Shown here one piece after another: positions 1 to 60,767 of a DNA stretch of 64,000 nt; the stretch's first letter is position 1; every line of letters starts with the position of its first letter. Both the position numbers and the translations under genes were made by a program. A model generated the notes under the pieces. That model searched no databases, was not told the origin of the DNA, and was given only the letters and a program-made list of their open reading frames with translations. The stretch is from the NCBI GenBank assembly GCA_030524055.1, contig JAUNHH010000001.1:296156-360155 (forward strand). Reading direction: 5' to 3'. This DNA comes from Actinomycetaceae bacterium (GTDB taxonomy: Bacteria; Actinomycetota; Actinomycetes; Actinomycetales; Actinomycetaceae).

Positions 1-1119
1 GCCAGCAGGGTTTTTGGCCAGCATCATGCGAGTTTTGCGGCCGTTAATATCGTGGATCGAATAGCGACCAGCCACTTCGGACACTTCGCCGACGGCTTGG
101 ACGGCGCGTTCAACAGGAATCCCTAGGGAGACAGCGGCTGCTACTGCTTGGGCGGCATTACCGAGGTTGACTCGGCCGGGCAAAGCAAGTGCGAGAGGAA
201 TACGTAAGCCGTCCGGACCACACAGAGTCGCACGCGAGGCAACTTTTGTCGAGGCCGAGGCACCTACTGTCTCAGCGCCAATCGCATCAGTTTCACTTGA
301 GGAACTCACCGGGGGAGTCAGGTCAATATCTTCCAGCCACCACTGGGCTTCTGGGCGCCGGTAGGTTGGCTCATCTGATGTGGATTCTGGGGTTTTGGCC
401 CCGCCCTCGTCAAGAATATTGTCTGGGTGGACTTCCCACCCCTTGTCGCTCCATGTGACGCGGCCGCCGCGCGGGAAGGCAACAGAATCCTGGTTCCAGG
501 CGGCACCCACCGACACCCACACGACATTCGGAGCATCCCACGCTGCCGAGGCAATCAGCGGATCATCGCAATTCGCCACTACCGTGGCATGCGGATTTTC
601 CTGGACAGCCTGACGTAGGCGCTGTTCAACTGCGCCGATCTCGCCTACACGATCCAGCTGGTCGCGCGAGAGATTCAGGAGGACAAAGGCCGCAGGACGC
701 ACGTCAGCGGCAACAATCGGCACATGCATTTCATCAACTTCAAGGGCCGCGAAAGGCGCCGTTGGCGAGGACATAAATGCCGTGAGGATTCCTGAGGGCA
801 TATTGTCGCCACGAATATTCGACGCCACTTCCCCGGAAGTCGAGAGGGCAGCACGCACCATCCGATTGGTTGTGGACTTGCCATTAGTACCGGACACGAT
901 GACGCTGCGAGTTGAGCGCGATACATCAGCAAGCACGGCGGGGCTGAGGAAAAGGGCGACTTCACCACCAATCATTCCACCGGATCCTCGGCCAAGAGAG
1001 CGGGATACGGACGCTGCCGCTTTACCCGCTGAGACGGCCAGCTTGGAACGTAAGGGAATGTGAGTGCGCAGGGAAATCGGCCCTGGGCGGTCTTCCTGCG
1101 GAGAGGAGCTCGAAGTCAT
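1..1119 (-). CDS. murT: MurT, lipid II isoglutaminyl synthase Mur-ligase-like subunit (3' end outside window)
   Basis: This is read directly from the minus strand as 373 codons starting at the ATG at 1119; the C-terminus lies beyond base 1. The N-terminus has the MurT-type GRGSGG segment followed by the Mur-ligase P-loop SGTNGKSTT near residue 70. The conserved NLSRDQLDR and NCDDPL segments follow. MurT works with GatD to amidate the second residue of the lipid II stem peptide, and gatD is expected just outside the window. Known MurT proteins carry a four-cysteine zinc ribbon after the NxDDP segment. Here that position reads FPRGG and then DEGGAK...YRRPEAQWW, with no CxxC pair, and one copy of the dispersed 13-mer (398-410) sits inside it. 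Family assignment is firm. The consequence of the missing cysteines is inferred. Confidence 0.88.
   Translation of the reverse strand, partial: MTSSSSPQEDRPGPISLRTHIPLRSKLAVSAGKAAASVSRSLGRGSGGMIGGEVALFLSPAVLADVSRSTRSVIVSGTNGKSTTNRMVRAALSTSGEVASNIRGDNMPSGILTAFMSSPTAPFAALEVDEMHVPIVAADVRPAAFVLLNLSRDQLDRVGEIGAVEQRLRQAVQENPHATVVANCDDPLIASAAWDAPNVVWVSVGAAWNQDSVAFPRGGRVTWSDKGWEVHPDNILDEGGAKTPESTSDEPTYRRPEAQWWLEDIDLTPPVSSSSETDAIGAETVGASASTKVASRATLCGPDGLRIPLALALPGRVNLGNAAQAVAAAVSLGIPVERAVQAVGEVSEVAGRYSIHDINGRKTRMMLAKNPAG
398..410 (-). repeat. Dispersed 13-mer ACGAGGGCGGGGC, copy inside murT
   Basis: Exact copy, on the murT coding strand and read as DEGGA. It lies in the region where MurT proteins usually have the second half of a zinc ribbon. 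Confidence 0.9.
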
Positions 1120-1196
1120 GGGTACAGGGTAGTCTTTCCCGGCGCGCGGGTCTGTCTCGAATGATCTGCTGGACATGCGGGGTGGGGCACATCTGG

Positions 1197-1209
1197 GCCC
1201 CGCCCTCGT
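1197..1209 (-). repeat. Dispersed 13-mer, copy upstream of murT
   Basis: Exact copy in the spacer between the SUKH-like gene and the murT start. Confidence 0.9.
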
Positions 1210-1240
1210 GAATGCGAATGGGAATGACTGCCACGATGCA

Positions 1241-1768: not shown

Positions 1769-1879
1769 AACAAGACCTTCCCGGTGCAGGCAGGATCATT
1801 CGACTGTCTGCCTCTATATAACCCCACATAACGCCAGGTCAAAGGCCTAAAAGTGCGTTACCCATAATGACACTACCTC

Positions 1880-1912
1880 CTCATTATGAGTAACAGCATT
1901 ACTCATAATGAG
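1880..1912. promoter_or_regulatory. 14-bp perfect inverted repeat, candidate operator
   Basis: CTCATTATGAGTAA is followed after five bases (CAGCA) by TTACTCATAATGAG. A related word, ACCCATAATGA, stands just upstream, which suggests repeated binding sites for a dimeric regulator. No T-run follows, so a terminator is less likely. Confidence 0.5.
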
Positions 1913-2069
1913 ATTTTCTATCAAGGCGGACTTTAGCCTTGCAAGCCTTAGGATTCGAGAGATCCACTCTAGCTTCACAGAAAAATCAATACACACCAAA
2001 CCTCCCTACTGATCGTCAGCTATATTTTCGCAGACCGCTATCAAGTTCCGCCTGAAAAATGTCACATTG

Positions 2070-2095
2070 GACAGAAATAAGGCCTTATTTCTGTC
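2070..2095. promoter_or_regulatory. 26-bp perfect palindrome overlapping the ATPase promoter
   Basis: GACAGAAATAAGG is joined directly to its reverse complement with no spacer. It ends nine bases before a -10-like TACAAT (2105-2110), so it covers the expected -35 region of the ATPase gene. This is a good position for a repressor site. Confidence 0.5.
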
Positions 2096-2104
2096 ATTTT
2101 CGAC

Positions 2105-2138
2105 TACAATCAGGCGTTAGTTGAGCACTGTCAGGAGG
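2105..2138 (+). promoter_or_regulatory. -10 element and ribosome binding site of the DUF4143-type ATPase gene
   Basis: TACAAT at 2105-2110 fits a -10 hexamer. AGGAGG at 2133-2138 lies five bases before the ATG at 2144. No clear -35 is visible, because the palindrome occupies that place. Confidence 0.5.
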
Positions 2139-2143
2139 GCCCG

Positions 2144-7218: not shown

Positions 7219-7231
7219 ACGAGGGCGGGGC
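7219..7231 (+). repeat. Dispersed 13-mer, copy between pstA and pstB
   Basis: Exact copy; its last four bases are the start of the hairpin at 7228-7254. Confidence 0.9.
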
Positions 7232-11112: not shown

Positions 11113-11125
11113 GCCCCGCCCTCGT
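11113..11125 (-). repeat. Dispersed 13-mer, left member of an inverted pair upstream of pstS
   Basis: Exact copy. It pairs with 11197-11209; the flanking bases extend the match to GCCCCGCCCTCGTGAA against TTCACGAGGGCGGGGC. Confidence 0.9.
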
Positions 11126-11196: not shown

Positions 11197-11209
11197 ACGA
11201 GGGCGGGGC
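11197..11209 (+). repeat. Dispersed 13-mer, right member of the inverted pair upstream of pstS
   Basis: Exact copy, about 65 bases after the regX3 stop in the direction of transcription. Confidence 0.9.
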
Positions 11210-14328: not shown

Positions 14329-14709
14329 GTCAGGCTGCTTTCTTTGGGTGGCGCTGCCTGTGCGTGTGCGCCCCGTCCTCGTGACGGGAATTCCTGTGCT
14401 ACCCCGCAGGACCCCAACGGCACGGAGAAACTCGGGACGCTCCACCGTTCCTACGGCTGTTCCTGCGACCAGCACCCGATCTTCACGCACCTGCGGCTCT
14501 CCTGCTCTGGGCCTGCGCCCACCCTTATGGGTCCCGCCCTGCGCGAGACCTACCATTAGGTAAAGAAATAGCAGTTGAGCTGCCACGATAACTAATCCTG
14601 AGCAGTCTCACTTTCAGGATTACTCGCTTAGTACGCCGAACCTAACCTGGCTTCCTCCGCGCGACACTGCGCAAAATTGCCGGTGCTCACCCACCTCGGG
14701 GTAAGAATC
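14329..14709. other. 380-base gap between hspR and the hypothetical gene
   Basis: It holds a one-mismatch copy of the dispersed 13-mer (14370-14382) and an 8-bp hairpin (14594-14621). The frame of the downstream gene is open through 14586, so part of this interval could be coding if an earlier start is used. Confidence 0.5.
14594..14621 (-). terminator. Hairpin downstream of hspR
   Basis: AATCCTGA and TCAGGATT form a perfect 8-bp stem around a 12-base loop, about 90 bases past the hspR stop. There is no strong T-run. It is the likely end of the chaperone operon. Confidence 0.4.
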
Positions 14710-19035: not shown

Positions 19036-19131
19036 AGAGGTTTCCTTTCTAGCGACCATTGCCGTGGGGCATGGTCGCGGTGGTCTGTATCCTTTGGCGT
19101 CCTTTCCTCAGTGACGAGGGCGGAGCACCAA

Positions 19132-19256: not shown

Positions 19257-20972
19257 CTACTGTGCTGGCGCCAAAATGAGGAGCTTGGAGTTATCGCGGC
19301 TACGATTTTGGGAAATAATAATCCCGCCCTCGACAATCATCCGCGACCCCTCAATCGAAGTAATCTGCGTGCCATCCTTACGGAAAAGCATGACGGTATC
19401 CCAGTCATTGACCATTGTTTCCAATGCCAAGACTTCACCAGAGCGGGACGCTAACACCTTGAATTCCGGAATCGGACCCAATGCTGTTTCTGTTCCTGAC
19501 ACGAAGATACCGCCAGAGGGGAACGTGCGATTTTCCCTGGCATCCAAAATAGGATCACCCACAGAATTCACTGCCCATACGCGATTAAGTTTCTCGACTT
19601 TATCGACAGGCAAGAGCAGCTCTTCAGGGAAACGCTTTGGCTCAATAATGGTCTTAATATCGAGAATCCGAACCTCTTTGCCGTACAGGTTCCACACAGT
19701 GGGAACAATTTCTGTCAGGCTACCTTCTTGCCCTGTGGGAACCGCACGATTGAGGAGGAATCCATCCCTAAACCAGATGGGGTGGCCGGAATACATATCC
19801 TGCACTTCAGAGATTTTGGCGCCTGTCTTGGCATTAAGAATGGCAATAACTTCAGTCTGGAAACCATTGGTATTTGTCTCCGACACTGGTGGGCCGTCTT
19901 TCGTACGCACAACGCAGCCAATGGCACCATCAAGAAGGCGGCATTCTGTACCTAATTCGATTTCCACACTCCATGCAATCTGGCCTTCTTTAACTGCGGC
20001 CAGAGCATGGCGATCCCCTTCACCATCACCATCGGGAAGATCAACATCCCAGAACGTTTGGTGATCCTGCACCCCAAGGAAGTCATACATCACGGCGTCA
20101 CCTTGAATGACTGCTAAATCTTTGCGGCTGCCATTGAGCAGATCAATAGTAAAGACGGTTTTGCCAGTACGCCCATTAGAGGTGCAATAGGCCAGGCCCT
20201 CTTGAGTCCCCAAACAGGTATGCCCATCTTGCGAACCAATAAAACGCCACCGCTCTTCACCGGTGCGCAAATCCGCACCAATAATCATCGTTTGCGCACC
20301 TTCAACAGGCGGCTTTTGGATAGCGATAATGGACTTGTCATTGGAAACGCCAACAACGCTGCCTTCAGTATCCCAGGCAACAGTTCCCTTGGAATAGTCC
20401 TCATGCAGCCAGGCAGTTGAGGATTCCACGTAGGTTTCCGCAGCAACGCCTTCAACTGCGCTCGCATCAACCTTCAGATCAGCCAGATTGGCACTTGGCT
20501 TAATTTCGGTGCCTTTACCGATATTTTCCGCACCGGACTGATTGCCGCTCGCCAGGGTTTCAGGTTGAGTTCCGCTAGCTGTCCCCGATTGGGGTTGGCC
20601 AGCGAATAATGGGGCGACATGTGGGTAGGCGAGAAAACCTCCACCAACAATAAGTCCACACACCAGCAGGCCAGCGAGAGCGAGAATCGGACCCCGCCCT
20701 CGTTTCTTTTCAATAACCCGAGCGCGACCCTGCGCGCGCGGACGGGTCTGACCCCCCTGAACGGAAGGATAATCTGGGGTTTCTGCTGCAGAATCCTTGC
20801 GCGGAACCCGCCGCGCAAGGGTAATTTCTTCAGGAGAATCGGGCTGTTCTGGTGGCGGCACTGCGCGGCTGCGGGATCCTCGACTGCGATCCATCGATGG
20901 CATGCTACGGCCGGCAGACGAGGGCACAATGTGCTCACGGGGGTCGGCGCCTAAAGGGTTATCCGAGCTCAC
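19257..20972 (-). CDS. Propeller array member 1: membrane-anchored PQQ-like beta-propeller protein
   Basis: 571 aa from GTG 20972, chosen because GGAGG lies five bases upstream; the frame is open four codons further. About 95 basic, disordered cytoplasmic residues precede a membrane segment (GPILALAGLLVCGLIVGGGFLAY). A Ser/Thr linker and a repeat domain outside the cell follow. Shared family marks are STAWLHEDYSKGTVAW, GVSNDKSIIA, the first Cys pair CLGTQEGLAYC and the second pair CRLLDGAIGC. It is the most divergent member and ends LLILAPAQ. Propeller fold is inferred from repeated VxTG..W strands. Function is unknown. It is separated from members 2-14 by rlmC. Confidence 0.75.
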   Translation of the reverse strand: MSSDNPLGADPREHIVPSSAGRSMPSMDRSRGSRSRAVPPPEQPDSPEEITLARRVPRKDSAAETPDYPSVQGGQTRPRAQGRARVIEKKRGRGPILALAGLLVCGLIVGGGFLAYPHVAPLFAGQPQSGTASGTQPETLASGNQSGAENIGKGTEIKPSANLADLKVDASAVEGVAAETYVESSTAWLHEDYSKGTVAWDTEGSVVGVSNDKSIIAIQKPPVEGAQTMIIGADLRTGEERWRFIGSQDGHTCLGTQEGLAYCTSNGRTGKTVFTIDLLNGSRKDLAVIQGDAVMYDFLGVQDHQTFWDVDLPDGDGEGDRHALAAVKEGQIAWSVEIELGTECRLLDGAIGCVVRTKDGPPVSETNTNGFQTEVIAILNAKTGAKISEVQDMYSGHPIWFRDGFLLNRAVPTGQEGSLTEIVPTVWNLYGKEVRILDIKTIIEPKRFPEELLLPVDKVEKLNRVWAVNSVGDPILDARENRTFPSGGIFVSGTETALGPIPEFKVLASRSGEVLALETMVNDWDTVMLFRKDGTQITSIEGSRMIVEGGIIISQNRSRDNSKLLILAPAQ

Positions 20973-21322: not shown

Positions 21323-22498
21323 ATGCGCTGCCACCATTGGGATGACGGAACCTGCACCTCCTGTTCTTGGCTTCCCCTGCCCTATACAGACCAGGTTGCG
21401 CGCAAAGTTGACCATATCCGCTCACTCCTTGACGAGGGCGCTTCACCGCATTCCATTCGCTGGCTTGACCCGGCCACCTCACCCGATGAGGGTTTTCGTA
21501 CTCACGTGAAATTGGTGGTTGGGGGGACGCCCCGCAGGCCGACATTAGGAGCTTTAGGAGCCGATCGGCGTGGGGTAGACCTGCCGGATTGCCGTATTCA
21601 ACACCCCGCTATTAATCGGGCAACCCCACCGCTCAAACGCCTCATCCGCGCATTGCGTTTGCAGCCCTATTCGATTAACCAGCGGACAGGCGAGCTGAAA
21701 TATATCCATATTTCCGTGGGTTCGGGCCACCAACTCATGATTCGTTTAGTGCTGCGCAGCAGGGATCGCGTGGCGGACATTCGCGAGGCACTGCCGGACT
21801 TTTATGATCTCATTCCGAATCTGACCGTACTGAGCGCGAATATTCATCCTCGCCACGAGGCACGCACGGAAGGCCCGGATGAAATTATTTTGACCCGCGA
21901 GACAACACTGCCCTATCGGGTGGGCAATGTGGATTTAGAGCTGGGTCCGCAGGCCTTTGCTCAGACGAATACGGCAGTGGCGGGGCAGTTATACCGGCAG
22001 GTCACCGCATGGGCACTCTCCCCCATTCACGAGGGCGGGGCGCCGGGGCGTCTCCTGTGGGATCTATATTGCGGTGTCGGTGGTTTTGCTTTACATGCCC
22101 TGGCTGGCGGGATCGATCACGTGGCGGGTGTTGAGGTGTCGCAACAGGCGATTAGTGCGGCGCGTCTGGCTGCCCGGCGGGCCGGATGGAGACGAGATCG
22201 GGCAGATTTCACGAGCGCTGATGCTACTGAATGGGCACGAGAGCGATTGACTGCGGGAAATGTGGCGCTGCCTGATGTCATTGTTGTTAACCCACCCCGG
22301 CGCGGTATTGGCGCCGAGTTAGCTGAAGTGATCGCTCACTCCGCTGTACCACGGGTGGTGTATTCCTCCTGCAATCCTGCCACTTTAGCCAAGGATTTAG
22401 AGGCAATGCCACAGCTAGCAGTTATTGAAGGGCGCCTTTTTGATATGTTCCCCCACACGGCCCATTGCGAAGTTGCTGTGCTTTTAGAACGGAAGTGA
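21323..22498 (+). CDS. rlmC: 23S rRNA (uracil-C5)-methyltransferase, RlmC/RumB-like
   Basis: 391 aa from ATG 21323; a TTG at 21266 is also in frame. Iron-sulfur ligands C3, C11 and C14 (MRCHHWDDGTCTSC) and C90 (DLPDC) match the RlmC/RumA cluster. The methyltransferase domain has the SAM site LLWDLYCGVGGFAL, VVNPPRRG, and the catalytic-cysteine segment VVYSSCNPATLAKDL. It methylates a uracil of 23S rRNA using S-adenosylmethionine. It is the only plus-strand gene within the propeller region. A 13-mer copy inserts HEGGA just before the SAM motif. Confidence 0.9.
   Translation: MRCHHWDDGTCTSCSWLPLPYTDQVARKVDHIRSLLDEGASPHSIRWLDPATSPDEGFRTHVKLVVGGTPRRPTLGALGADRRGVDLPDCRIQHPAINRATPPLKRLIRALRLQPYSINQRTGELKYIHISVGSGHQLMIRLVLRSRDRVADIREALPDFYDLIPNLTVLSANIHPRHEARTEGPDEIILTRETTLPYRVGNVDLELGPQAFAQTNTAVAGQLYRQVTAWALSPIHEGGAPGRLLWDLYCGVGGFALHALAGGIDHVAGVEVSQQAISAARLAARRAGWRRDRADFTSADATEWARERLTAGNVALPDVIVVNPPRRGIGAELAEVIAHSAVPRVVYSSCNPATLAKDLEAMPQLAVIEGRLFDMFPHTAHCEVAVLLERK
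22029..22041 (+). repeat. Dispersed 13-mer, copy inside rlmC
   Basis: Exact copy on the coding strand, read HEGGA immediately before the SAM-binding motif. Confidence 0.9.
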
Positions 22499-28417: not shown

Positions 28418-28430
28418 ACGAGGGCGGGGC
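28418..28430 (+). repeat. Dispersed 13-mer, copy between propellers 5 and 6
   Basis: Exact copy in the 96-base spacer, about 20 bases past the member 6 stop. Confidence 0.9.
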
Positions 28431-31625: not shown

Positions 31626-31638
31626 ACGAGGGCGGGGC
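31626..31638 (+). repeat. Dispersed 13-mer, copy between propellers 7 and 8
   Basis: Exact copy in the 101-base spacer, about 20 bases past the member 8 stop. This is nearly the same placement as the copy after member 6. Confidence 0.9.
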
Positions 31639-42722: not shown

Positions 42723-42928
42723 GGAGGACTCCTTACTCTGTGTTGGTTCAGATTCAACTCTAATGGCGAAAGGCGCATGGTGCAGAAAATGAGACGGTTC
42801 GTGATGACCTGCGCGAATCACCGTTGAGAAGGCAAATACCGCTGGTTTCGACTCATTCCCGCCACCATTTCCAGCAACGAGGGCGGGGTCACTTTTTCAT
42901 AATGCTGCGTTGAATTTCAGTGCCTCTC

Positions 42929-44619: not shown

Positions 44620-44726
44620 CCCCCGCCCTCGTATATTTTCTGGCTCCCCTTCACACGGTGAACTTCCCGCCCGCCCGATACACTTCCACTGATAGTCCAC
44701 AGTGCCCCACTCCCTGAAGGAGATCT

Positions 44727-45187: not shown

Positions 45188-45200
45188 ACGAGGGCGGGGC
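45188..45200 (+). repeat. Dispersed 13-mer, left arm of the GNAT/AKR terminator
   Basis: Exact copy, 18 bases after the GNAT stop; preceded by CCATGA. Confidence 0.9.
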
Positions 45201-45222: not shown

Positions 45223-45235
45223 GCCCCGCCCTCGT
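45223..45235 (-). repeat. Dispersed 13-mer, right arm of the GNAT/AKR terminator
   Basis: Exact copy, 27 bases past the aldo/keto reductase stop. Confidence 0.9.
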
Positions 45236-46140: not shown

Positions 46141-47544
46141 ATGTTTTCAGCGCCACATGATCTTTCTGCCCTGACCAATAGCTATCGGCATTTTCTTGAT
46201 GACTGCCCTTCGCCCTACCATGCGGCAGAAAATGTGGCACAAACGCTGGTTGACCACGGTTTCCGGCGGCAGAGCGCGGCCGAGGCGTGGGATGCAAGCC
46301 CAGGCGGGCATGTCATGGTCCGTGACGGGGCAGTGGCTGCCTGGTTTGTGCCGGATTCACTGGGGACGGATACGCCAGGTGCGGGGCCAAAGGCCGGTTT
46401 CCGGATTGTTGGGGCGCATACCGATTCGCCGGGACTGCGCCTCAAGCCCGTTCCTGCCAGCGGCGGACCTGGCGGCTGGGGAATGATTGAGGTTGAAACC
46501 TATGGCGGATTGCTACGGAACTCTTGGCTGGATCGAGAACTTTCGGTGGCCGGGCGGATCATTACCGCTGATGGCGGGGTCCATTTAGTGCGCACCCGAC
46601 CGCTGGCCCGGATTCCACAATTGGCTATTCACCTGGATCGCGATGTCAATAACACAGGGCTGGTACTCGACCCGCAAATCCATATGCACCCAGTGTGGAC
46701 AGTTGGGGCCGGAAGGAGTGGCGCTGCATCCGCGAGCGCTGGCGCTGATGCCGCCGGTGCCACTGAAAGCGGCGCCCCACGGAGCTTTGCAGAAGAACTC
46801 ATGGCGATTATTCGCCAAGATGCCGGCCTGGAGGCGGATGCAGTTATTGTTGGCACTGACCTGATCCTCATTCCCTCGCAGGGAACAGGGCTTTTCGGGG
46901 CGACTGGGGAGTTTATTGCTGCTGGCCGCCAAGACAATCTTTCCTCAGTGTTTGCAGGGCTTCAGGCGCTCATTGACTGTGCAGGCGCACCGCGGGAACA
47001 GGCGAAACTCTCTGACGTCCTTGTCTTTACCTGTTTTGACCATGAAGAAATCGGGTCAGAAACAGCTACCGGTGCGGCTGGCCCGCTTTTAGAGCAGGTT
47101 TTGCGACGCACGGCCTTCGCCCTCGGATGTGACGAGGACGGGGCGGCTCGTATGCTGGCAGCCTCCACCTGTATTAGCGCTGATGCCGCCCACTCGATCC
47201 ATCCGAATTACCCCGAACGCCACGACCCTGTGCAATACCCCGTGATGGCAGCCGGGCCGGTGCTGAAAATTAATGCAAATCAGCGTTATGCCACTGACGG
47301 CGTGGGGCAAGCCGTGTGGGAGCGGGCACTCGCGGCGGCGGAAGTGAGCGGCCAGACTTTTGTCTCGAAAAACTCCGTGCCCTGTGGGTCAACGATTGGG
47401 CCGATTACTGCGACCCGTTTAGGTATTCGCACCGTTGATGTGGGGATTCCACTTTTATCAATGCATTCGGCTCGGGAAATGAGTCATATTGCGGATCTTG
47501 ATGGGTTGTCACGAGCATTGGGGGCGTTCTGGGCTGGAGCGTAG
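46141..47544 (+). CDS. apeB: M18-family aminopeptidase
   Basis: 467 aa from ATG 46141. Metal-binding and catalytic segments are visible: GAHTDSPGLRLKP near residue 90, AAGRQDNLSSVFAGLQAL, CFDHEEIGSETATGA, and near the C-terminus CGSTIGPITATRLGIRTVDVG and MHSAREM. It removes N-terminal residues from peptides in the cytoplasm using two metal ions. An insertion of Ala/Gly-rich residues (SGAASASAGADAAGATESG) between two conserved blocks is probably a surface loop. Confidence 0.92.
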   Translation: MFSAPHDLSALTNSYRHFLDDCPSPYHAAENVAQTLVDHGFRRQSAAEAWDASPGGHVMVRDGAVAAWFVPDSLGTDTPGAGPKAGFRIVGAHTDSPGLRLKPVPASGGPGGWGMIEVETYGGLLRNSWLDRELSVAGRIITADGGVHLVRTRPLARIPQLAIHLDRDVNNTGLVLDPQIHMHPVWTVGAGRSGAASASAGADAAGATESGAPRSFAEELMAIIRQDAGLEADAVIVGTDLILIPSQGTGLFGATGEFIAAGRQDNLSSVFAGLQALIDCAGAPREQAKLSDVLVFTCFDHEEIGSETATGAAGPLLEQVLRRTAFALGCDEDGAARMLAASTCISADAAHSIHPNYPERHDPVQYPVMAAGPVLKINANQRYATDGVGQAVWERALAAAEVSGQTFVSKNSVPCGSTIGPITATRLGIRTVDVGIPLLSMHSAREMSHIADLDGLSRALGAFWAGA

Positions 47545-47556: not shown

Positions 47557-47569
47557 GCCCCGCCCTCGT
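47557..47569 (-). repeat. Dispersed 13-mer, copy after the aminopeptidase gene
   Basis: Exact copy, 12 bases past the aminopeptidase stop and 17 bases before the hairpin at 47587. Confidence 0.9.
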
Positions 47570-48219: not shown

Positions 48220-48747
48220 TTATTCGGCAATAAAGTCCGCTTCTGGGCGAGCCGCGAGTGCCCGCGCCACCGCCGACGTAAAACGAGGATTCATATGCGG
48301 CAATTTGTCGCCACGAATAAATGCGGTCTGAGTATTTTCGCCGTCAGCTGGCCAGGGTTCGCCACTGCCCCATTCGAAGAGGAATGTGAGGTCGAGATAT
48401 TCCGCAATATCCCCATTGGCGTAAGTAATTGGGCCAACTGTTTCCACCGAGAGAAGGCGGATTGGGCGGGCGTGTACTCCCGCCTCTTCGAGAATTTCAC
48501 GTTGGGCGGCAATGGCGGGTTCTTCGCCGGGATCGACAATTCCGGTGACGGGAGTCCACTGGGCATTGTCGCTGCGTTGGACAACAAGGATTTCGACGAG
48601 GGCGGGGTCCAGGTCTTTTTCAGGGGGGAGTATGAGCGGCGGAGCGCCTGGGGCGGGCCGCACCACGATTGCGGTGACTCCTGGAATCCATAGGGGTGCA
48701 TGTCCAATGTGTTTGCGGAGCTCAAGGATGAAGTCAGGAGTTGCCAT
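48220..48747 (-). CDS. NUDIX hydrolase
   Basis: 175 aa from ATG 48747; a start 13 codons earlier is also open. The Nudix box reads G-IVDPG-E-EPAIAAQ-REILEE-AG-V, a full match to GX5EX7REUXEEXGU. The protein hydrolyses a nucleoside-diphosphate-linked substrate that is not identifiable. A one-mismatch 13-mer (48596-48608) lies inside it. Confidence 0.9.
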   Translation of the reverse strand: MATPDFILELRKHIGHAPLWIPGVTAIVVRPAPGAPPLILPPEKDLDPALVEILVVQRSDNAQWTPVTGIVDPGEEPAIAAQREILEEAGVHARPIRLLSVETVGPITYANGDIAEYLDLTFLFEWGSGEPWPADGENTQTAFIRGDKLPHMNPRFTSAVARALAARPEADFIAE

Positions 48748-52013: not shown

Positions 52014-52325
52014 GAGTTCTCCTTACACTGTACTGAGGGATGAGTCCGCACCTAATCGGTTATGACCAGCACGAACGCGTCTTTTATCGTCGCATGGTCC
52101 CTCTAGTTCCTCCAAAGCCAACTAGGCATTAGTTATTGGACACTCCTTCCACTGTTTATGCAGATCAGAGCCTCATATTCTCCCTTGTGGCAAGGGGTTG
52201 AGCCCCGCCCTCGTTCAGCGTCCTCTCAGGTCGTGAGGCTCCACACCCAAGATGCTTCACATCGCCCTCTCATGGCACGATGGTGGGGTTGTCTACGCCA
52301 ATAACGCGTAGGGAGAGGTGGACAG
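52014..52325. other. 312-base divergent spacer with one 13-mer copy
   Basis: It lies between the surface-protein start (minus) and the DUF2510 gene (plus). It holds the exact 13-mer at 52202-52214 and the GGAGAGG ribosome site of the plus-strand gene (52311-52317). Promoters are expected for both directions but I could not fix them. Confidence 0.45.
52202..52214 (-). repeat. Dispersed 13-mer, copy in the surface-protein/DUF2510 spacer
   Basis: Exact intergenic copy. Confidence 0.9.
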
Positions 52326-54209
52326 ATGAGCAACCCGATCCCGGGTTGGTACCCGGATCCGGACAATGGCACGCGCCATCGCTATTGGGACGGCGATGCG
52401 TGGACCGAAAATATTCGATACGACTTGGAGTTCGTCAACGCCGATGAGGATGAGATCATCGACGATGACGCTTATGAGGATGCCGATATGGCATTTGAAG
52501 CGGACTCCTACGGGGCAGAAGACTCTTCCTTCTCTTCTTACGAGGGCGGGGCCGTCACCGTTGACGAACCTGCATTCATTTCCCCAGATGTTCCTACCTT
52601 TGACTCTGCTCCGAGCGCAGTTGAGGACGCCTCCCAGGCTCCTGGAGCTGCCGCTCTTCAAGAGGTATGGAAGAGGCCAAAGTGGCTGAAGGGCGCAGCA
52701 GCGGCTGCTGGTGCTGTTACGGGACGGATCTCTGAGGCTCAGGCTCCAGAAGAACCCGAGTTCCCGGAAGCACCGGAAGCACCCGAAGCGCCTGGATTCC
52801 CAACTTTTGGCGTCGAAGACCCACAGGCAACCGCAGTTTTTGATGCTGGCGTCGGGGCGGGCCCAGGCGCGCCCGGTGTGGATGAGACCAACCTGAGCAT
52901 TCCCGCCGTTGAGGCTCCTTCTTTTGGTGGGCGGCCCACCTTCCCCGCTTTTGGGGCACAGGCCGCACCACAAGCGGAGGCTTTCGTCCCTGAAGAGTCC
53001 ACTTTTGAGGCGCCCACTGCTCCCGCACTTCCTCAGCAGACCCAGCCAGTTTGGCCTCAGGAAACCTCAACATCTGCCTGGTCTGCACTTTTGCGTCGGA
53101 CAGAGCCGCAAGATGCCTTATTGCCTGAGGTTGAGGAGCCCTCGTTGGAGGGTGGCCTTTGGGAAGGCGAAGGTGCCGATGAGGTACCTGAAGAGGAATC
53201 CGGCCCATCCTTTGGGCTCTCCCTTCCCACCTCGAAACTTTCTAAGAAGTCACCTCTTCGCCGCGGGCTCGCTGGCGCAACTGGCCTATTTGGTCGGGCC
53301 AGAGATGCGCTTGGGGGCGACGAGGGCGAGGCTCCCACCTTTGAGAGCCCAGAATTTGGTGATGCTGGCGAGGTTCCGTCCTTAGGTGACACCGATCTGG
53401 GGACAGCAAGTCTGGGCACCAGTGACATTACTTCGGACACTTTTGGTGTGTCTGGTTTTGGTGCTGGCCGCGCCAACGCAGACTTTGATGCCGCGGATCT
53501 GGGCGGCAGCGAAGGACTAGATTCCACCGATTTTGGTTCTGTTGAGGCGGAGGCAGCCGGATTCGATACTTCCGGCGTTGATGCCTCTGGCCTTGGCCTG
53601 ACTGAAGTGGAAGCTCCTGAGGGCGAGTTTGAGTTGCCCGAGTTACCAGGCAACCCTCTTAAAGCTGCCAGCGGATTACGTTCGGCTCTGGGCCGCACGC
53701 CGCTTTTTGGTCGTAAACGGGATCAGGAAGACGACGTTGCTCCAGGTGCCACAGCAGGTGGCCCCGGAATTCCTGTCGCTGACAGTGCCGCACCTAGTAC
53801 CGACACAGAATTCCTTGCCGATTCGGCTGCCGCCACCCCATGGATCGGAAGTGACCGGTCACTGGAGGATGACAATAGTGCAGCTGGGATTGCCTCAGAG
53901 GATGGTCAGGAGACTTTCCCATCGTCGCGGCCAGGTCTGACCTACCCAGATGATCGCCATGGCGCACCCGCTGTAGAAACCACTACACCAGCAGCAACAA
54001 AAACGAATCCGTGGCAGGTGGCGGTGCTAGCCACCAGCGCAGCCCTCCTTCTCGTTGTCATTGCGATTATTGGGGTGCTAATTCATAGTGCCACCCTTGG
54101 GCCACGCCTAGAGGATGCGCGCGCAAAACTCAATGAGGCTCAACAATCCGTTGTGGATGCACAGAATGAACTCACGCAAGCCGAACAAGAAAGTGGAGGC
54201 TCACAGTGA
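52326..54209 (+). CDS. DUF2510-domain membrane protein with long acidic linker
   Basis: 627 aa. It opens with a DUF2510 motif (GWYPDPDNGTRHRYWDGDAWTE). About 540 residues of acidic, Phe/Pro/Glu-rich low-complexity sequence follow, with repeats such as PEAPEAP, FGAQA, TSLGTSD and ADFDAADLGG. A membrane segment then comes near residue 565 (VAVLATSAALLLVVIAIIGVLI), with a short coiled coil outside (LEDARAKLNEAQQSVVDAQNELTQAEQE). DUF2510 is a short motif common at ends of actinobacterial membrane proteins. The next gene has the same design of disordered tail, helix and coiled coil. They overlap (GTGA) and probably assemble together. Confidence 0.75.
   Translation: MSNPIPGWYPDPDNGTRHRYWDGDAWTENIRYDLEFVNADEDEIIDDDAYEDADMAFEADSYGAEDSSFSSYEGGAVTVDEPAFISPDVPTFDSAPSAVEDASQAPGAAALQEVWKRPKWLKGAAAAAGAVTGRISEAQAPEEPEFPEAPEAPEAPGFPTFGVEDPQATAVFDAGVGAGPGAPGVDETNLSIPAVEAPSFGGRPTFPAFGAQAAPQAEAFVPEESTFEAPTAPALPQQTQPVWPQETSTSAWSALLRRTEPQDALLPEVEEPSLEGGLWEGEGADEVPEEESGPSFGLSLPTSKLSKKSPLRRGLAGATGLFGRARDALGGDEGEAPTFESPEFGDAGEVPSLGDTDLGTASLGTSDITSDTFGVSGFGAGRANADFDAADLGGSEGLDSTDFGSVEAEAAGFDTSGVDASGLGLTEVEAPEGEFELPELPGNPLKAASGLRSALGRTPLFGRKRDQEDDVAPGATAGGPGIPVADSAAPSTDTEFLADSAAATPWIGSDRSLEDDNSAAGIASEDGQETFPSSRPGLTYPDDRHGAPAVETTTPAATKTNPWQVAVLATSAALLLVVIAIIGVLIHSATLGPRLEDARAKLNEAQQSVVDAQNELTQAEQESGGSQ
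52540..52552 (+). repeat. Dispersed 13-mer, copy inside the DUF2510 gene
   Basis: Exact coding-strand copy read YEGGA. A one-mismatch copy (53320-53332) is in the same gene. Confidence 0.9.
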
Positions 54210-55486
54210 ATAAGTGGATCCCCTTTAACTCCGACAATGGCGACCGTTCTTCCGGGTCCGGTGACGGGGGTTTCGGTAGTCAGGGCCCCTCAGGGTACGA
54301 GGGCGGGGCCGATGATTTTGATGCCACTGCAGGTTCAGACAGTTTTGACCCCAATGCCACAGCACCATTTGACGCTCCAGGTACTCCAGGCGCCTTTGGC
54401 GTCGGCGCGCACGCCGCTGACCAGCCGCTCGGCAGTGAACCGGGCGCTTTTGGCGTAGAAACCGGCGCTTTTGGCGTAGAACCTGAGGGTTTTAATGCCA
54501 CCCCTGGCGGCTTCCCTGCTGCTCTGCCTGGCGATTTTCCTCAGGATTTTGGGGGCGATGACCCTCAGGACTTTGAGGATCCCGATGGCGTATTTGACCC
54601 CAGCGCCACCGCCCTCGTTACCCCTATTGACCCCTCTGAAGACGTCGATACCAACGATCACAACCCCGCCGCGGGCGCACTGGCGGCAGGCGCCGCTGCC
54701 GCTGGGGCAGCACCTGCGCGGGGTAATCGCGTCCTTGCTGCAGCCACCGCATTTTTACCGACGAATACGAATATTCTTCGTGTCCTCACTGCTGTCGGTG
54801 CCGCATTTACTGTGGTTGGGCTGGTTGTCCTTGTCATGTTGCTCAACGGCACAGGCCGTGCTTCGCAGGAAATTGCTGATCTTGAGGCCTCTGCGGAAGC
54901 TGCCCGCACCCAGGCTGCCACCCTTCAAAGTGACGCGGCCACCACCCGCGAGCGCACCCAGGCCTTAACCGAGGCCCGCCAAATTCAGGAAGCTGAAGCC
55001 CAATCCACGGGTACTAATGCTGGCCAAGCCTGGTGCGATGCAGTTAATCGTGATTCACGCACGAAGATAGGTGAGCATCTTTCCCGCTATGACAGCCTGA
55101 ACCAGTGGGGTAAAGACAAGGTAGCCGCGACCTGTAAAGATAAGAAGGATGCGGTGGATGCCTCCAGCGCAGTGCGTGAGCAACTACGTGAAAGCGTCGT
55201 CATTTCTTCCTGCCGGGTCAGTAGCGATGGCCAGATCACCATGAAAGGCACCGTGAATTATGCGGGCCCTGAGGGTGTGGCCGAGGATAGCCCGTTGCGT
55301 AAGGCCCATCTGTGGGTTGATGTGTACGCTCAGTCGGGCGAAGACGACGAAACAGGCAAAGCCATCGTTGAACTTCCTGATACCGAACCGGGGGCCACTC
55401 AGTCCTGGGAAGCCACGTTCCCAGCTGAGTCCGCTGATGGAAAGTGTCGTGTAAGGGAAATCCAGTGGTGGCCGTCGGCGCTCTAA
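54206..55486 (+). CDS. Membrane protein with disordered tail, coiled coil and C-terminal outside domain
   Basis: 426 aa from GTG 54206, which overlaps the previous stop. About 180 disordered residues contain repeats of GAFGVE/GAFGVG type. One membrane segment follows (VLTAVGAAFTVVGLVVLVMLL), then a coiled coil (IADLEASAEAARTQAATLQ...), then an outside domain with AWCDAVNRDSRTKIGEHLSRYDSLNQWGKDKVAATC. A beta-rich end has VVISSCRVSSDGQITMKGTVNY and IQWWPSAL. The domain is not recognised. Four cysteines in the outside domain could form disulfides. It is coupled to the DUF2510 gene. Confidence 0.72.
   Translation: MNKWIPFNSDNGDRSSGSGDGGFGSQGPSGYEGGADDFDATAGSDSFDPNATAPFDAPGTPGAFGVGAHAADQPLGSEPGAFGVETGAFGVEPEGFNATPGGFPAALPGDFPQDFGGDDPQDFEDPDGVFDPSATALVTPIDPSEDVDTNDHNPAAGALAAGAAAAGAAPARGNRVLAAATAFLPTNTNILRVLTAVGAAFTVVGLVVLVMLLNGTGRASQEIADLEASAEAARTQAATLQSDAATTRERTQALTEARQIQEAEAQSTGTNAGQAWCDAVNRDSRTKIGEHLSRYDSLNQWGKDKVAATCKDKKDAVDASSAVREQLRESVVISSCRVSSDGQITMKGTVNYAGPEGVAEDSPLRKAHLWVDVYAQSGEDDETGKAIVELPDTEPGATQSWEATFPAESADGKCRVREIQWWPSAL
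54297..54309 (+). repeat. Dispersed 13-mer, copy inside the second membrane gene
   Basis: Exact coding-strand copy read YEGGA, near the start of the disordered tail. It is at a comparable place to the copy in the preceding gene. Confidence 0.9.
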
Positions 55487-55506: not shown

Positions 55507-56601
55507 ATGGGACGGATACAACCGGATAAGAATCTTCGCGATCATATCTGTTCTCGAATGGCAATTCTTGAATCGGATCCAACGTCAATTCTGCACAGGG
55601 TGCCTTTTCATTCGCACCCTGCGCGCTGTATTGATGGGCGCCCATTCACTGTTGAGCAGATTGATCTTCAGGGGGTTGAGTTTCCAGTCCCGTGTGGGGA
55701 ACTTCCACGCGGGGCTGGTGGCACTGCCGCAACCTGGGTGATTGACCTGCTGACGACGACGGCTTTTCGTCCGCATAGTTCCTTCCCGGGTTCGGCGGTG
55801 GAGGCCGATGAATTGCGTGCGCTGACCCCCACGTGGTTGTCGCTGACCTGTGCGGCGTTGCAGCGTCAGGGGATTCCTGTGGGTACGCATGGGGATGATC
55901 GCAGTCATGGTGGTGACTGTGGATGTGGCGCGGTGGACCGGTTGGGGTCGATTTTGGCGCTGATTGGCCAGGCGCACCCAACGCTGTTTTCATTGTTGGA
56001 GCAGTGGGGTTTTGATCCGCGCCACCTCCCAGCGTCCCTGCCGAATCGCTGTGCACGCTATGCCATGACAGTGCCTAGTGGGTCGGGGATTTCAGGCATT
56101 CTCAAAGGTCATGCTTCCGCTGCGGTGCCGTCAATGCAGGGCCGTCACGCCGAGGTGGCGGTGGTCGTCAATTTGATCCCTGGAACGGTGGTCGATACGG
56201 CGGCGGTTGGTCGTTTTCTTGTGGCTAACGAGGACGGGGCCTGGCGAGATGCGGAATCATCACTGATTGCTGATCCACGGCAAAGTCTTCCCGATCCTCG
56301 CAACCCTCAGGTTTTTGCTGTGGACCCCTGGTCCTTTTGGAATGTCGCGGATTTCTTGGTGGCACATGCCGATCCTGAGGCTGGAGCAACAGAAACTGGT
56401 CTTTTAGTGTTGCCCCGCGAGATTACTCGTGAGGCGGTAGCCACCACCCTTATGTTGCTCAATTGCGCGACTTTAATGACTCTATGTGGATCGGGGATGC
56501 CGGTGATGGTCCTACGGCCTGATCCTGTGCCCGCCCACCAGTTGCCAGAGTCAAAGATGGCCCCGCAGCCGACTCCTGTTGATCTGCCTGCCAATGGCTG
56601 A
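55507..56601 (+). CDS. Hypothetical protein with a THGDDRSHGGDCGCGAVDRL metal-site-like motif
   Basis: 364 aa from ATG 55507; the frame is open upstream into the previous gene, and no start has a clear ribosome site. The striking motif at residues 127-146 has two His, several Asp and a CGCGA word. It recalls the metal site of cadmium-type carbonic anhydrase-like proteins, which use His and Cys ligands, but the rest of the protein is not recognised and the match is tentative. Other parts are ordinary globular sequence (AVVVNLIPGTVVDTAAVGRFLVANEDGAW). Its stop overlaps the S4-domain gene. Confidence 0.5.
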   Translation: MGRIQPDKNLRDHICSRMAILESDPTSILHRVPFHSHPARCIDGRPFTVEQIDLQGVEFPVPCGELPRGAGGTAATWVIDLLTTTAFRPHSSFPGSAVEADELRALTPTWLSLTCAALQRQGIPVGTHGDDRSHGGDCGCGAVDRLGSILALIGQAHPTLFSLLEQWGFDPRHLPASLPNRCARYAMTVPSGSGISGILKGHASAAVPSMQGRHAEVAVVVNLIPGTVVDTAAVGRFLVANEDGAWRDAESSLIADPRQSLPDPRNPQVFAVDPWSFWNVADFLVAHADPEAGATETGLLVLPREITREAVATTLMLLNCATLMTLCGSGMPVMVLRPDPVPAHQLPESKMAPQPTPVDLPANG

Positions 56602-57064: not shown

Positions 57065-60045
57065 TAATTGCGACGCGGAGTCATCAGTAGTGCGACGCAG
57101 GCAGTAATAATTGGGACGAAAATAAGCAGCCCAATAATGGCGGGCCAGGGAACAATAAAACTTAAGTCCATTCCCATTCGTCCGCCTTTATCTAAAGCGC
57201 GCACAACAGCCCATCCGCAAATAAGTCCTCCGAATAGTCCCAGTGGGAGACAATGTAGGGTGAGAACTGTTCCTTGGGCGATTCCTAGGCGGTAGCGGAT
57301 ATATCCTGGCGACCCAATCTGGTCCATTACCTCGAAGTCTTGGCGGGTTTCTAACGACACCACTGTGAGCGCCAAAATGACGGTGGCAAAAACAATAACA
57401 AGTGTGCCGCCGACAAGCATATAGGGCTGAACTAAGGTCACTAATGGCGGAATAATGGGAATAATATCTATTCCGGAGGCTCGCGGCCCCTGACCTGCGC
57501 TAAAGAAGGACAGGCTATCGCCGCCTTCTTGGGGAGTGATGACAGTACCCAATGAGGAATAGGGCAAGGTAAGGCGCTGCGCTGCTTGAGGCGAGAGAAT
57601 CACAATAGTGAGTGGGCCTGGGCTGGCAGGAAATGACGCATAGTTGCGAATGTCGGTGAGTTCATGTGCGCGTGAAGCGGGAATCAGTCCTCCCGTTGTT
57701 GGCGAAATTTTCCCTAACGAGGGCGGGGCCACCTCACGTTGTCCTGGGAAAGCATCGCCTACAGCTCGTCCCATTGGCGCACCTTCCCCACCGAGGGGGG
57801 TTGCTGTTGACACCACCGAGATTTTTGCCTGTCCTCGCTCATCAATAGTGTCTGCGCCGGGGACAAGAACGCCTCCTTTACGCAAGGTCGAGACCGCACG
57901 GAGAAGCCCATTTCCCTGAACAATGCCAGAGTTTTGCAGCCAGGTGCCATCATCAACAATATAGAGCGCGTGAATTTCAGCTAATGCGCGGTCAGCATAG
58001 GCGCGTCGGGCGTCATTTTCTTCGCTGGCGCTGACAACAAAGGGGCGCCACGCGTGGTTGGAGGATTCCAGCGCCATATCCCATGTCACCCCATATATGG
58101 GAGTGGATTTTCCACGCCCCAATTGGGAGTGAACAATACTGCCCCCCTCATCAAAGAGAGCATTCAGGCGCTCGGGTTCTTGGAGAAGATTATCTGCTGT
58201 GACAAAGGCCGATCCGAGGGGTCCTACATGCGCGCGCGCATTCCACATCGACCCGTCAACTGAAGCAACAGAGACTAAGGCGGCCACAGCTGCCACAAGA
58301 AGAGAAGTCAGTGACGCCAATGCAGGGAAAGAACGGTGCCCATGGCGCACAGCGTCACGCATTGCCAGGCGCCAATCAATACTTCCCGCTCCACGCAAAT
58401 GACTCCACCCTGTCATCACCCATGGCAATGAGCCAATTAATGCCAGAAGAAAAATGGCACCAAGAATCACAGTGACAACAATAGAGCCCGAGTCGGCTGC
58501 AAGCGCTAAGAAAGGTAATGATAATGCGGCAGCAGCAGGATAGGTTTCGTTACGACGCACAAGAGATGAGCGTTGACGAAGGCGCCGAGAAATCACTAAT
58601 CGAATATCTGTTTGCGCAGCAATTCGAGCCGGCCAAAATGCCGCGGCAATTCCCACCACTAAAGGCACAATGGTGGCGATCAGCGGTAGACGCCAATCCA
58701 CAGCCTCGCCACCAATCCCGAGAATCAATGCAGCCACAAAGGAAATGATGGCAGTTAATAATCCAGCAAGAACTGCGGAGGCTACGCCAATACCAATACC
58801 GAAAGAGAGAACCACTCGACGAACATCACGGCAATTCGCACCAATCGTTGAGAGCGTGCCGAAAGTGCGAATATGAGTGCGAATAAAAGCCATGTAGACG
58901 GGCGACACCACTAAAATTGTTTCGGTGATGACCAGCAGAGCGAGGACCCCCAGCAGCAGAGTAGCTTCGGCGGTATTTGACGAACTCTTGCCAGCAAAAG
59001 AAAACATATTCGCCGGGTCAATACCCGAAAATGGGCCTAAAAGAGCAGATTCTACCGAGGAGGATTCTGCAGAAATAGACGAAGAATGTAATGAGGCTAA
59101 AGCAATATCTCTGGATATCACCAGATAACCCTGCGCATTGAGAGATTCGAGATCATTCCAGTCTAAAGAAGCGCCACCCGAGACATACCATGAGACTTGC
59201 GAAGTATCCACATCTAAGGTGTAGACAGTAAATGTTCCTGGACCAACTACTACGGTCTGCTGGCCTGATATTTCCCCAATGACCCGCACTTTACGCGTCA
59301 TATTTTTATCGTCATTCCCAGAAGCAACCGCAATATCGACAGTATCGCCACTGACTATATTGAGGCTCTCTAAAAGATCGCTACTGAAAAGCGCCTCAAA
59401 GGGTGCTGGAGAAGGAGCTCCATTGACCTTTTTATAGCCTGCTATTTCCGGGTTGGCCGTTTGCCGCAAGTCAATTTCGACTTTTTCTCTCTCAGCGCCC
59501 GCCGCGCCCTCTTCGCCATTTCCCCCTGATGCGCCGCTATGTGTGCCAAAGGGAGCACTTGGTAGCAGGTCAGCGCTTCCACTATCCCGCTCACTCCCGT
59601 CCTGACCAGCAGCGACGGGGACAGAGACGCTGGCGTGAGTAAAAGTTGCCACCGGCTGAGCAGTAATATCTGCACGTATTTGCGGGCCACTCAGATGGGC
59701 GTCGGATGATTGACCCCAGTCAACTTCGCTGCCAATTCCTCCACCTGCAGCCCCGCCCTCGTCCATGGATAAGAGCCCACCAAAGGCATCCTGAGTAATG
59801 GGGCCAGGAGAAATCGGGGTGATAATGGCGCGAGGGCTGCCACTATTAGCCAACCAGGACACCACCGCATAGTGCCCTGAATGCAGCATGGACCATACGG
59901 TCAACGCCACAATTGCAATTACTGTAGGAGCGCAGGTCAATAAGACTGTGGGCAGTGTCCACATATGGCGACGTTGGGCAGTACGGGCCGCGATACGCAG
60001 AGCAATACGCCACTTTGCTGCCCAACGGCGAAGCCGACCAATCAC
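57058..60045 (-). CDS. FtsX-type ABC transporter permease
   Basis: 995 aa. An N-terminal membrane helix (LPTVLLTCAPTVIAIVALTVW) is followed by a large outside domain of about 300 residues. A group of helices with the FtsX-type core comes near residues 370-480 (VYMAFIRTHIRTFGTLSTIGANCRDVRRVV), then a second helical group and outside domain. A last FtsX core closes the protein (LTVVSLETRQDFEVMDQIGSPGYIRYRLG). It is a MacB/LolC-type exporter or surface-mechanics permease of the BceB/macrolide group. It overlaps the ATPase gene by four bases. Confidence 0.85.
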   Translation of the reverse strand: MIGRLRRWAAKWRIALRIAARTAQRRHMWTLPTVLLTCAPTVIAIVALTVWSMLHSGHYAVVSWLANSGSPRAIITPISPGPITQDAFGGLLSMDEGGAAGGGIGSEVDWGQSSDAHLSGPQIRADITAQPVATFTHASVSVPVAAGQDGSERDSGSADLLPSAPFGTHSGASGGNGEEGAAGAEREKVEIDLRQTANPEIAGYKKVNGAPSPAPFEALFSSDLLESLNIVSGDTVDIAVASGNDDKNMTRKVRVIGEISGQQTVVVGPGTFTVYTLDVDTSQVSWYVSGGASLDWNDLESLNAQGYLVISRDIALASLHSSSISAESSSVESALLGPFSGIDPANMFSFAGKSSSNTAEATLLLGVLALLVITETILVVSPVYMAFIRTHIRTFGTLSTIGANCRDVRRVVLSFGIGIGVASAVLAGLLTAIISFVAALILGIGGEAVDWRLPLIATIVPLVVGIAAAFWPARIAAQTDIRLVISRRLRQRSSLVRRNETYPAAAALSLPFLALAADSGSIVVTVILGAIFLLALIGSLPWVMTGWSHLRGAGSIDWRLAMRDAVRHGHRSFPALASLTSLLVAAVAALVSVASVDGSMWNARAHVGPLGSAFVTADNLLQEPERLNALFDEGGSIVHSQLGRGKSTPIYGVTWDMALESSNHAWRPFVVSASEENDARRAYADRALAEIHALYIVDDGTWLQNSGIVQGNGLLRAVSTLRKGGVLVPGADTIDERGQAKISVVSTATPLGGEGAPMGRAVGDAFPGQREVAPPSLGKISPTTGGLIPASRAHELTDIRNYASFPASPGPLTIVILSPQAAQRLTLPYSSLGTVITPQEGGDSLSFFSAGQGPRASGIDIIPIIPPLVTLVQPYMLVGGTLVIVFATVILALTVVSLETRQDFEVMDQIGSPGYIRYRLGIAQGTVLTLHCLPLGLFGGLICGWAVVRALDKGGRMGMDLSFIVPWPAIIGLLIFVPIITACVALLMTPRRNYQ
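57717..57729 (+). repeat. Dispersed 13-mer, copy inside the permease gene (antisense)
   Basis: Exact copy, on the strand opposite to the coding strand, so it is not read as EGGA. This argues that the DNA word, not the peptide, is what is conserved. Confidence 0.9.
59750..59762 (-). repeat. Dispersed 13-mer, copy inside the permease gene (sense)
   Basis: Exact coding-strand copy read DEGGA (residues 95-99), just inside the first outside loop. Confidence 0.9.
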
Positions 60046-60767
60046 AATGTGCCCCGAAGAAGATCCTCAATACGATCCTCGCGTGTGCGATCTGCTATCG
60101 CGCCGCTGCGCAAGAAAATCGTGCGATCAGCCCACGCCGCATAACGAGCCTCGTGGGTAATAAAAAGAACAGCCACACCATTATCCGCTGCACGGCGCAG
60201 CACCGCCATCACCGCATCTCCCCCAGCAACATCAAGGGCGCTTGTGGGTTCATCAGCTAAAACAACGGCTCGACGTCCAACTAAAGCCCGGGCAATCGTC
60301 ACCCTTTGGACTTCACCAGAAGACAATTCATCAGGAAAACGATCTGCGAGGGACTCCAACTCAAGTTCCTCTAAGGCTCTCATCGCAGCCTTCCGCGCCT
60401 TCCTGTAGGAACCACCCCCCAGTTCCACAGGTAAAGCCACATTTTCAACGGCAGATAAGCCCAGGATCAGCTCGGAATTCTGGTGAACATACCCCACCAC
60501 AGATCGGCGGATTTCTGCGCGCTGCCCCAGAGTCATCCGGGTAATATCGTCACCGCGAATATATACATGCCCATGGGTCGGGATTTCCAGACCGGCCGCA
60601 ATCGACATAAGCGTCGATTTACCACTTCCTGATGGACCCATAATGGCCACCAATTCGCCTGCGGACACAGAAAGGTCAATCCCATTGAGGGTTCGCACCG
60701 CATTTGCGCCCCGCCCTCGTTCATGGGAAACGCCGATGATATCGACGGTCTCCGCAACGGGAATCAT
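60042..60767 (-). CDS. ABC transporter ATP-binding protein, LolD/MacB type
   Basis: 241 aa. Walker A GPSGSGKST, signature ELSSGEVQRV and Walker B AVVLADEPTSALD are all present, with the H-loop VLFITHEARYAAWADR. It drives the FtsX-type permease encoded directly downstream, with overlapping ATGA joints on both sides. The 13-mer at 60708-60720 falls in its start region and is read as HERGRGA, in a different frame from the EGGA cases. Confidence 0.93.
   Translation of the reverse strand: MIPVAETVDIIGVSHERGRGANAVRTLNGIDLSVSAGELVAIMGPSGSGKSTLMSIAAGLEIPTHGHVYIRGDDITRMTLGQRAEIRRSVVGYVHQNSELILGLSAVENVALPVELGGGSYRKARKAAMRALEELELESLADRFPDELSSGEVQRVTIARALVGRRAVVLADEPTSALDVAGGDAVMAVLRRAADNGVAVLFITHEARYAAWADRTIFLRSGAIADRTREDRIEDLLRGTL
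60708..60720 (-). repeat. Dispersed 13-mer, copy inside the ABC ATPase gene
   Basis: Exact coding-strand copy in another frame. Its flank (TTCCCATGA before the motif) is the same as at 29923-29935. Confidence 0.9.

Follow-up and report, generated by a model that had tools for sequence, protein, structure and literature searches.

The 64 kb of Actinomycetaceae DNA analysed here (the window, taken at its full length) contain one 13-base word, ACGAGGGCGGGGC, in 21 exact copies, nine on the plus strand and twelve on the minus strand, and the question they raise is what such a word is for. A sequence-only reading had counted the same 21 copies and eleven more with one mismatch, judged them far beyond chance, and likened the word to the DNA uptake sequences of Neisseria and Pasteurellaceae, with a Chi-like, chromosome-organising or protein-binding role as other options. 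We recovered every copy at the same coordinate and on the same strand; the eleven one-mismatch copies are all present and are the only ones in the window, and 100 dinucleotide shuffles of the window yielded no exact copy. The copies lie in genes and spacers alike, as had been claimed: by our own gene calls, 10 of the 21 are intergenic and 11 are within genes, on both strands. The copies are as follows.

398..410, minus strand, exact copy, in a gene
1197..1209, minus strand, exact copy, intergenic by our own gene starts
7219..7231, plus strand, exact copy, intergenic
11113..11125, minus strand, exact copy, intergenic, inverted pair with 11197
11197..11209, plus strand, exact copy, intergenic, inverted pair with 11113
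14370..14382, minus strand, one-mismatch copy ACGAGGACGGGGC (A at position 7)
19114..19126, plus strand, one-mismatch copy
20691..20703, minus strand, one-mismatch copy
22029..22041, plus strand, exact copy, in a gene
28418..28430, plus strand, exact copy, intergenic
29923..29935, minus strand, exact copy, in a gene
31626..31638, plus strand, exact copy, intergenic
36206..36218, plus strand, one-mismatch copy
36352..36364, minus strand, exact copy, in a gene
40319..40331, minus strand, exact copy, in a gene, direct pair with 40400
40400..40412, minus strand, exact copy, in a gene, direct pair with 40319
42877..42889, plus strand, one-mismatch copy
44620..44632, minus strand, one-mismatch copy
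45188..45200, plus strand, exact copy, left arm of an inverted pair in the spacer of two convergent genes
45223..45235, minus strand, exact copy, right arm of the 45188 pair, which folds at -36.9 kcal/mol (z -7.2)
47132..47144, plus strand, one-mismatch copy ACGAGGACGGGGC (A at position 7)
47557..47569, minus strand, exact copy, intergenic
48596..48608, plus strand, one-mismatch copy
52202..52214, minus strand, exact copy, intergenic
52540..52552, plus strand, exact copy, in a gene
53320..53332, plus strand, one-mismatch copy
54297..54309, plus strand, exact copy, in a gene
56228..56240, plus strand, one-mismatch copy ACGAGGACGGGGC (A at position 7)
57717..57729, plus strand, exact copy, in a gene and antisense to it
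59750..59762, minus strand, exact copy, in a gene
60708..60720, minus strand, exact copy, in a gene
61780..61792, plus strand, one-mismatch copy

The window gave no Rfam match above the gathering score and no tRNA. A row of large genes, all in the same direction, occupies its minus strand from 22528 to 42821; of six scanned against Pfam, two match PQQ_2 (one over the cut-off) and four match nothing.

The word is genome-wide and strand-neutral

The draft genome from which the window comes (G000; 3.03 Mb, 47 contigs) contains 727 copies, split 363 to 364 between the forward and reverse strands, at a density of around 240 per Mb, while the reversed word, counted as a control, is absent. The word is thus a general motif rather than one limited to the window, and a local duplication as the source of the copies is excluded.

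Chi and FtsK-type polar signals show strand bias. We examined this property in three contigs (965 kb), judging it by GC skew and coding strand. Contig C32 (415 kb) has a negative GC skew in all eight 50 kb bins and 69% of its coding on the minus strand, with 64 plus and 61 minus copies. Contig C46 has 23 plus and 24 minus copies with 77% of coding on the plus strand, and contig C3 has 30 and 22 with 62% on the plus strand. Replication-strand bias of the 13-mer is absent in these contigs, the strands being even or nearly so. Such balance despite biased coding speaks against Chi-like and FtsK-type polar signals, and the Chi-like role suggested earlier is disfavoured. More broadly, the word could be the binding site of a chromosomal protein, whether a nucleoid, segregation, replication or recombination factor (Chi-like hot spots included), selected genome-wide; the density of copies would suit such a site, and the evidence on gene ends and on relatives given below bears on it further.

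Three long motif-free stretches, inspected as possible foreign DNA, proved to be two dense core operons and one paralogue array. In contig C46, 40 kb of core genes (118380-158730), which include comEA-comEC, lack the exact 13-mer yet hold 18 copies of ACGAGGGCG and about 30 of ACGAGGnCG. In contig C32, positions 214287-227467 (loci L169 and L170) comprise eleven consecutive genes, apparently of a few alternating paralogue types and perhaps an accessory or immunity-gene array; the 16 kb around them hold one ACGAGGGCG.

A rigid core with softer edges

We followed the abundance of the word as mismatches were allowed, over 1.157 Mb of the same genome. Sites with 0, 1 and 2 mismatches numbered 272, 296 and 259, compared with 0, 2 and 64 for the reversed control; at three mismatches the word and its control were alike (593 and 577). 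One-mismatch sites were most frequent at position 13 (95), followed by positions 7 (78), 11 (45) and 1 (38), with fewer at positions 12 (14) and 10 (10) and between 0 and 4 at each of positions 2-6, 8 and 9. Since mismatches spare the last group, the word has a rigid core, CGAGGnCG, in which the seventh base is free. Upstream of the 159 intergenic copies in this sample, A occupies position -4 in 77%, T position -3 in 72% and T position -2 in 51%, which bears out the AT-rich upstream flank noted in the window and gives a full form in this genome of ATTn-ACGAGGGCGGGGC. Outside the 13-mer and this short flank, letter preferences within 40 bases on either side are weak (104 copies).

Over-represented short words may also arise as restriction-modification or methylation signatures, and a methyltransferase link exists for one of them, the frequent cyanobacterial GCGATCGC-type palindrome, in the account given in PMC1939737. 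The present word is non-palindromic, however, extends over 13 bases plus an AT flank, and prefers an inverted arrangement in its close pairs, and we consider a methylation signature very improbable.

Copies concentrate between genes and pair at convergent gene ends

Genes were called with our own hexamer model over 1.197 Mb of the genome, of which 88% was coding. Although intergenic sequence makes up 12% of this DNA, it holds 165 of the 284 copies, with 114 within genes and 5 across a gene end. Intergenic copies (1.157 Mb) are densest where genes converge, at 3.27 per kb, compared with 1.04 per kb in spacers of tandem genes and 0.60 per kb in those of divergent genes. Of 26 pairs of adjacent copies separated by under 150 bases, 24 are inverted (p 1e-5). 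All four inverted pairs that were folded as RNA reached -37 to -42 kcal/mol and greatly outperformed their shuffles (z -6.6 to -8.5), in agreement with the paired hairpins proposed from the window.

Where genes converge, the hairpins probably give the word an additional use, as transcription terminators. A stronger version would make the word no more than a half-site of intrinsic terminator hairpins, or a dispersed REP-like palindrome, for which the orientation of close pairs, their folding and the peak in density between convergent genes all argue. This version is nevertheless improbable: at most 48 of the 284 copies belong to close inverted pairs, the 114 copies within genes lie on both strands relative to the gene, and a hairpin requires complementarity but no fixed word, which leaves the rigidity of the core and the AT flank unexplained. 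Inverted pairs and enrichment at convergent ends are likewise not expected of sites for a chromosomal protein.

The in-gene copies use all six frames, extending the earlier observation of more than one, and 58 of 108 share a single same-strand frame that reads E-G-G-A. Among the available loci, 23 of the 114 could be aligned to a relative. Identity at the motif residues was 0.45, compared with 0.60 for the alignment, and a gap fell within the motif codons in 9 of the 23, compared with 6.3% of random sites; 14 of the 23 stand in ungapped alignment. In-gene copies thus tend toward variable parts of proteins, and some may stem from small insertions; the excess of gaps fits variable linkers and would equally fit insertion. 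Insertion is what a small mobile element or remnant repeat, spread by copying, would produce, and the high copy number and the nine coincident gaps would suit it. Against it stand the ungapped majority, the weak preferences past the 13-mer and its AT flank, mismatches restricted to particular positions, unlike the neutral decay of insertions, and relatives that bear dialects with the same core. Spread of this kind seems to us a slight possibility at most.

Dialects of the word within one genus

Among 34 other genomes of the genus, the exact word occurs 162 times in G013, 104 in G015, 80 in G014, 71 in G017, 69 in G007, 31 in G189 and 21 in G009, and 0 to 13 times in the remainder; the reversed word, as control, occurs 0 to 4 times. 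Genomes from the family's other genera have 0 to 11 copies of the exact word. The free seventh base predicted variants in relatives. In nine genomes (G010, G011, G012, G019, G022, G023, G180, G181 and G183) we found 178 to 323 copies of ACGAGGnCGGGGC and 0 to 4 of the G form (35 congeners counted). Among the sites listed, the seventh base in G010 is mostly C with few T, and a longer pattern gives mostly C in G011, G012, G019, G023 and G181, while other sampled congeners carry A-type or CCGAGG-type words. Counting in close relatives, which the sequence-only reading had proposed alongside the whole-genome count, gives the exact word in some congeners and variants with a common core in others.

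As GAC GAG GGC/GAC codons are common, codon usage was considered as the cause of these words. We shuffled synonymous codons within genes and resampled intergenic letters, using 20 to 180 kb samples of the relatives and our own gene caller. ACGAGGGCGG was observed 545 times against 17.6 expected in the window's genome, 33 against 8.1 in G013, 17 against 2.8 in G015, 25 against 6.5 in G007 and 14 against 2.9 in G014. Other genomes favoured other forms: ACGAGGCCGG in G011 (32 against 6.8) and G023 (7 against 1.0), ACGAGGACGA in G005 (41 against 3.3), CCGAGGCGG and TTGCCGAGG in G190 (16 against 3.1 and 14 against 2.3), and CCGAGGCCGT in G016 (6 against 0.5) and G184 (3 against 0.1). G013 is mixed, its A, C and T forms being raised too (20 against 7.9, 17 against 5.1 and 17 against 4.7). 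The excess in the samples was modest in G003 and G002 and weak in G001, and the G188 sample showed nothing clear; it was also smaller in GC-rich genomes (for ACGAGGGCG, 72 against 26 in G013 and 70 against 23 in G007). With words well above this null in most sampled genomes, and more than half of the copies in the window's genome (165 of 284) outside genes, codon usage was rejected as the cause.

TTGMCGAGGNCG (TTG[A/C]CGAGGnCG) has 39 to 381 copies in 32 of the 35 congeners, clearly more than the reversed control with 0 to 13, and lies near the control in G006 (16 against 10), G021 (16 against 8) and G188 (5 against 3). Across 213 genomes of the family, ATTGACGAGGNCG has 0 to 8 copies in most of those outside the genus and 9 to 48 in 15 of 178; the highest counts, in G151 (48), G163 (25) and G154 (23), mark possible further carriers. 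Across 396 genomes of the order, TTGMCGAGGNCGGGG stays at 4 or fewer outside the genus, near chance, compared with 256 in the window's genome. A further comparison covered 31 named loci, none longer than 21 kb: ACGAGGCCG occurred in S. odontolytica 9 times against 1.8 and in HPA0247 11 times against 2.1, with no excess in the four tested loci from other families (Corynebacterium, Raineyella, Micrococcus terreus and Arthrobacter).

On a TadA tree of 15 genomes the dialects changed 7 times, compared with 9.1 when shuffled (as low in 5 of 200 shuffles), and of the four dialect groups with more than one row, C alone (two rows) forms one clade. This distribution weakly supports inheritance of the dialects. 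A DNA-binding protein that co-evolved with its site would also suit a genome-wide word with evolving dialects; taken with the balanced strands and the paired gene ends, a chromosomal protein site, perhaps for a non-polar binder, is in our estimate unlikely, although the strongest of the alternatives to an uptake sequence.

Competence and tad pilus genes

Competence genes, to which the comparison with uptake sequences had pointed, are present in the window's genome. We identified comEC by PF03772 and TadB/C by PF00482, and named comEA, the tad genes and their neighbours by reading the proteins. A comEA-comEC pair lies with a holA-like gene and rpsT at L138 8585-12458. One tad pilus cluster, at L207 5094-10233, encodes TadG, TadE, Flp, a fused TadB/C, TadA and TadZ, and another, at L218 7096-11678, encodes TadA, TadB, TadC, Flp, two TadE-like proteins and a TadG-like protein.

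Across the genus, comEC was found in 33 of 35 genomes, the misses being G021 (70% complete) and G189 (88% complete). Of 14 genomes from other families that are without the word, 13 have comEC too, and its presence therefore does not discriminate. In 14 sampled relatives, tad cluster 2 has Flp, TadB/C, TadA and TadG in all 14, TadE in 10 and TadZ in 12. Tad cluster 1 is apparently missing from G016, G018, G184, G186 and G188 and is ambiguous in G021, which has a single weak PF00482 match. ACGAGGNCGGGGC is more abundant in the 29 genomes with tad cluster 1 than in the 5 without it (p 0.0018, G021 left out, kinship ignored). Tad cluster 1 was rejected as the determinant of the word: G016, G018, G184 and G186 keep 111-122 copies of TTGMCGAGGNCG without it (G188 does not), so the cluster is not strictly needed to keep the word. 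The type IV pilin signature PF07963 was matched in none of the 35 congeners, the model being short and its absence weak evidence, and inspection by eye of the open frames of tad cluster 1 (10 loci, of which 8 gave any) gave no clear receptor candidate.

A probable DNA uptake sequence

Biased uptake together with recombination would be expected to leave such a trace: a word spread over the whole genome and both strands alike, most crowded where sequence is under least constraint, paired at the ends of genes, fading gradually as mismatches are added, and divided among species into dialects with one core. On these sequence grounds the word is probably a DNA uptake sequence of this actinomycete. 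The likeness drawn by the sequence-only reading is thus supported by genome-wide copies, strand balance, intergenic enrichment, inverted pairs, a rigid core, dialects and competence genes, which together point to this putative function.

The proposed mechanism would begin with binding of the word on free DNA by a protein at the cell surface, for which a tad pilus minor pilin or ComEA is the likeliest candidate. Tagged DNA would be pulled in, and its strand would pass through ComEC and recombine with the homologue. Each such event would favour intact copies over mutated ones, and the word would accumulate and stay uniform as a result. A change in the receptor would shift the preferred letters and create a new dialect, partly isolating lineages.

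The word, with its dialects, is best read as an uptake sequence convergent with those of Neisseriaceae and Pasteurellaceae. In the Pasteurellaceae, an AT-rich flank sits beside the core of the uptake sequence, and copies are placed in weakly conserved parts of proteins; both traits recur here. The AT-rich part lies 5' of the core in our word, which contains neither the AAGTGCGGT nor the ACAAGCGGT core and is unrelated in sequence, and the host is Gram-positive, with uptake putative. Over-representation that decays with mismatch is shared too, as it is reported in PMC1939737 for the uptake sequences of H. influenzae and N. gonorrhoeae.

The Neisseriaceae DUS, as PMC3630211 describes it, resembles our word in its abundance on both strands, its enrichment between genes, its inverted pairs where genes end, its short rigid core with softer edges, and its species dialects. 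Competence there is pilus-based; here it is predicted from competence and pilus genes. The sequences are unrelated: our word has no CTG on either strand and hence no CTG-containing DUS core. The copy number falls short of the thousands reported in certain DUS genomes, and the pili are of the tad type rather than type IVa, with the (short) PF07963 pilin model matching 0 of 35 congeners. This host is a Gram-positive actinomycete in which uptake is putative.

A parallel for the machinery is Micrococcus luteus, where both tad clusters are required for transformation (PMC4322843) and comEA/EC homologues are present (PMC4322843; PMC6370729). The window's genome resembles it in having a pair of tad clusters as well as comEA-comEC. 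In contrast to the system proposed here, the terms 'uptake sequence' and 'sequence-specific' are absent from the main text of PMC4322843.

Uptake sequences have been placed in the Pasteurellaceae and Neisseriaceae, two Gram-negative families for which such self-DNA tags are described in PMC5031613 and PMC7811141; this would be the third case. In open-licence papers we found no uptake sequence described for Actinomyces, Schaalia, Actinobacteria, Actinomycetota or Gram-positives. It is fairly likely, if somewhat less so than the uptake function itself, that this genus of Actinomycetaceae holds the first Gram-positive uptake sequence system, of a third independent origin, using a tad-type and not a type IVa pilus, with gene flow between species shaped by four or more dialects. 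If so, uptake specificity would need neither an outer membrane nor type IVa pili, this being a third convergent case and in a monoderm phylum, and the question of the receptor would become testable in a tad pilus. A matching word on donor DNA might also make a poorly tractable genus transformable, and the dialects would be a marker of gene flow between species.

Some samples contain further repeated words. In 160 kb of G011 a second over-represented word, GGAATTGCA, occurs 19 times where 0.2 are expected, and in 20 kb of G023 GAATTGCA occurs 7 times where 0.5 are expected. The 100 kb sampled from G016 (L215, L261-L264) contain some 48 occurrences of a set of overlapping words, which probably mark a CRISPR array.
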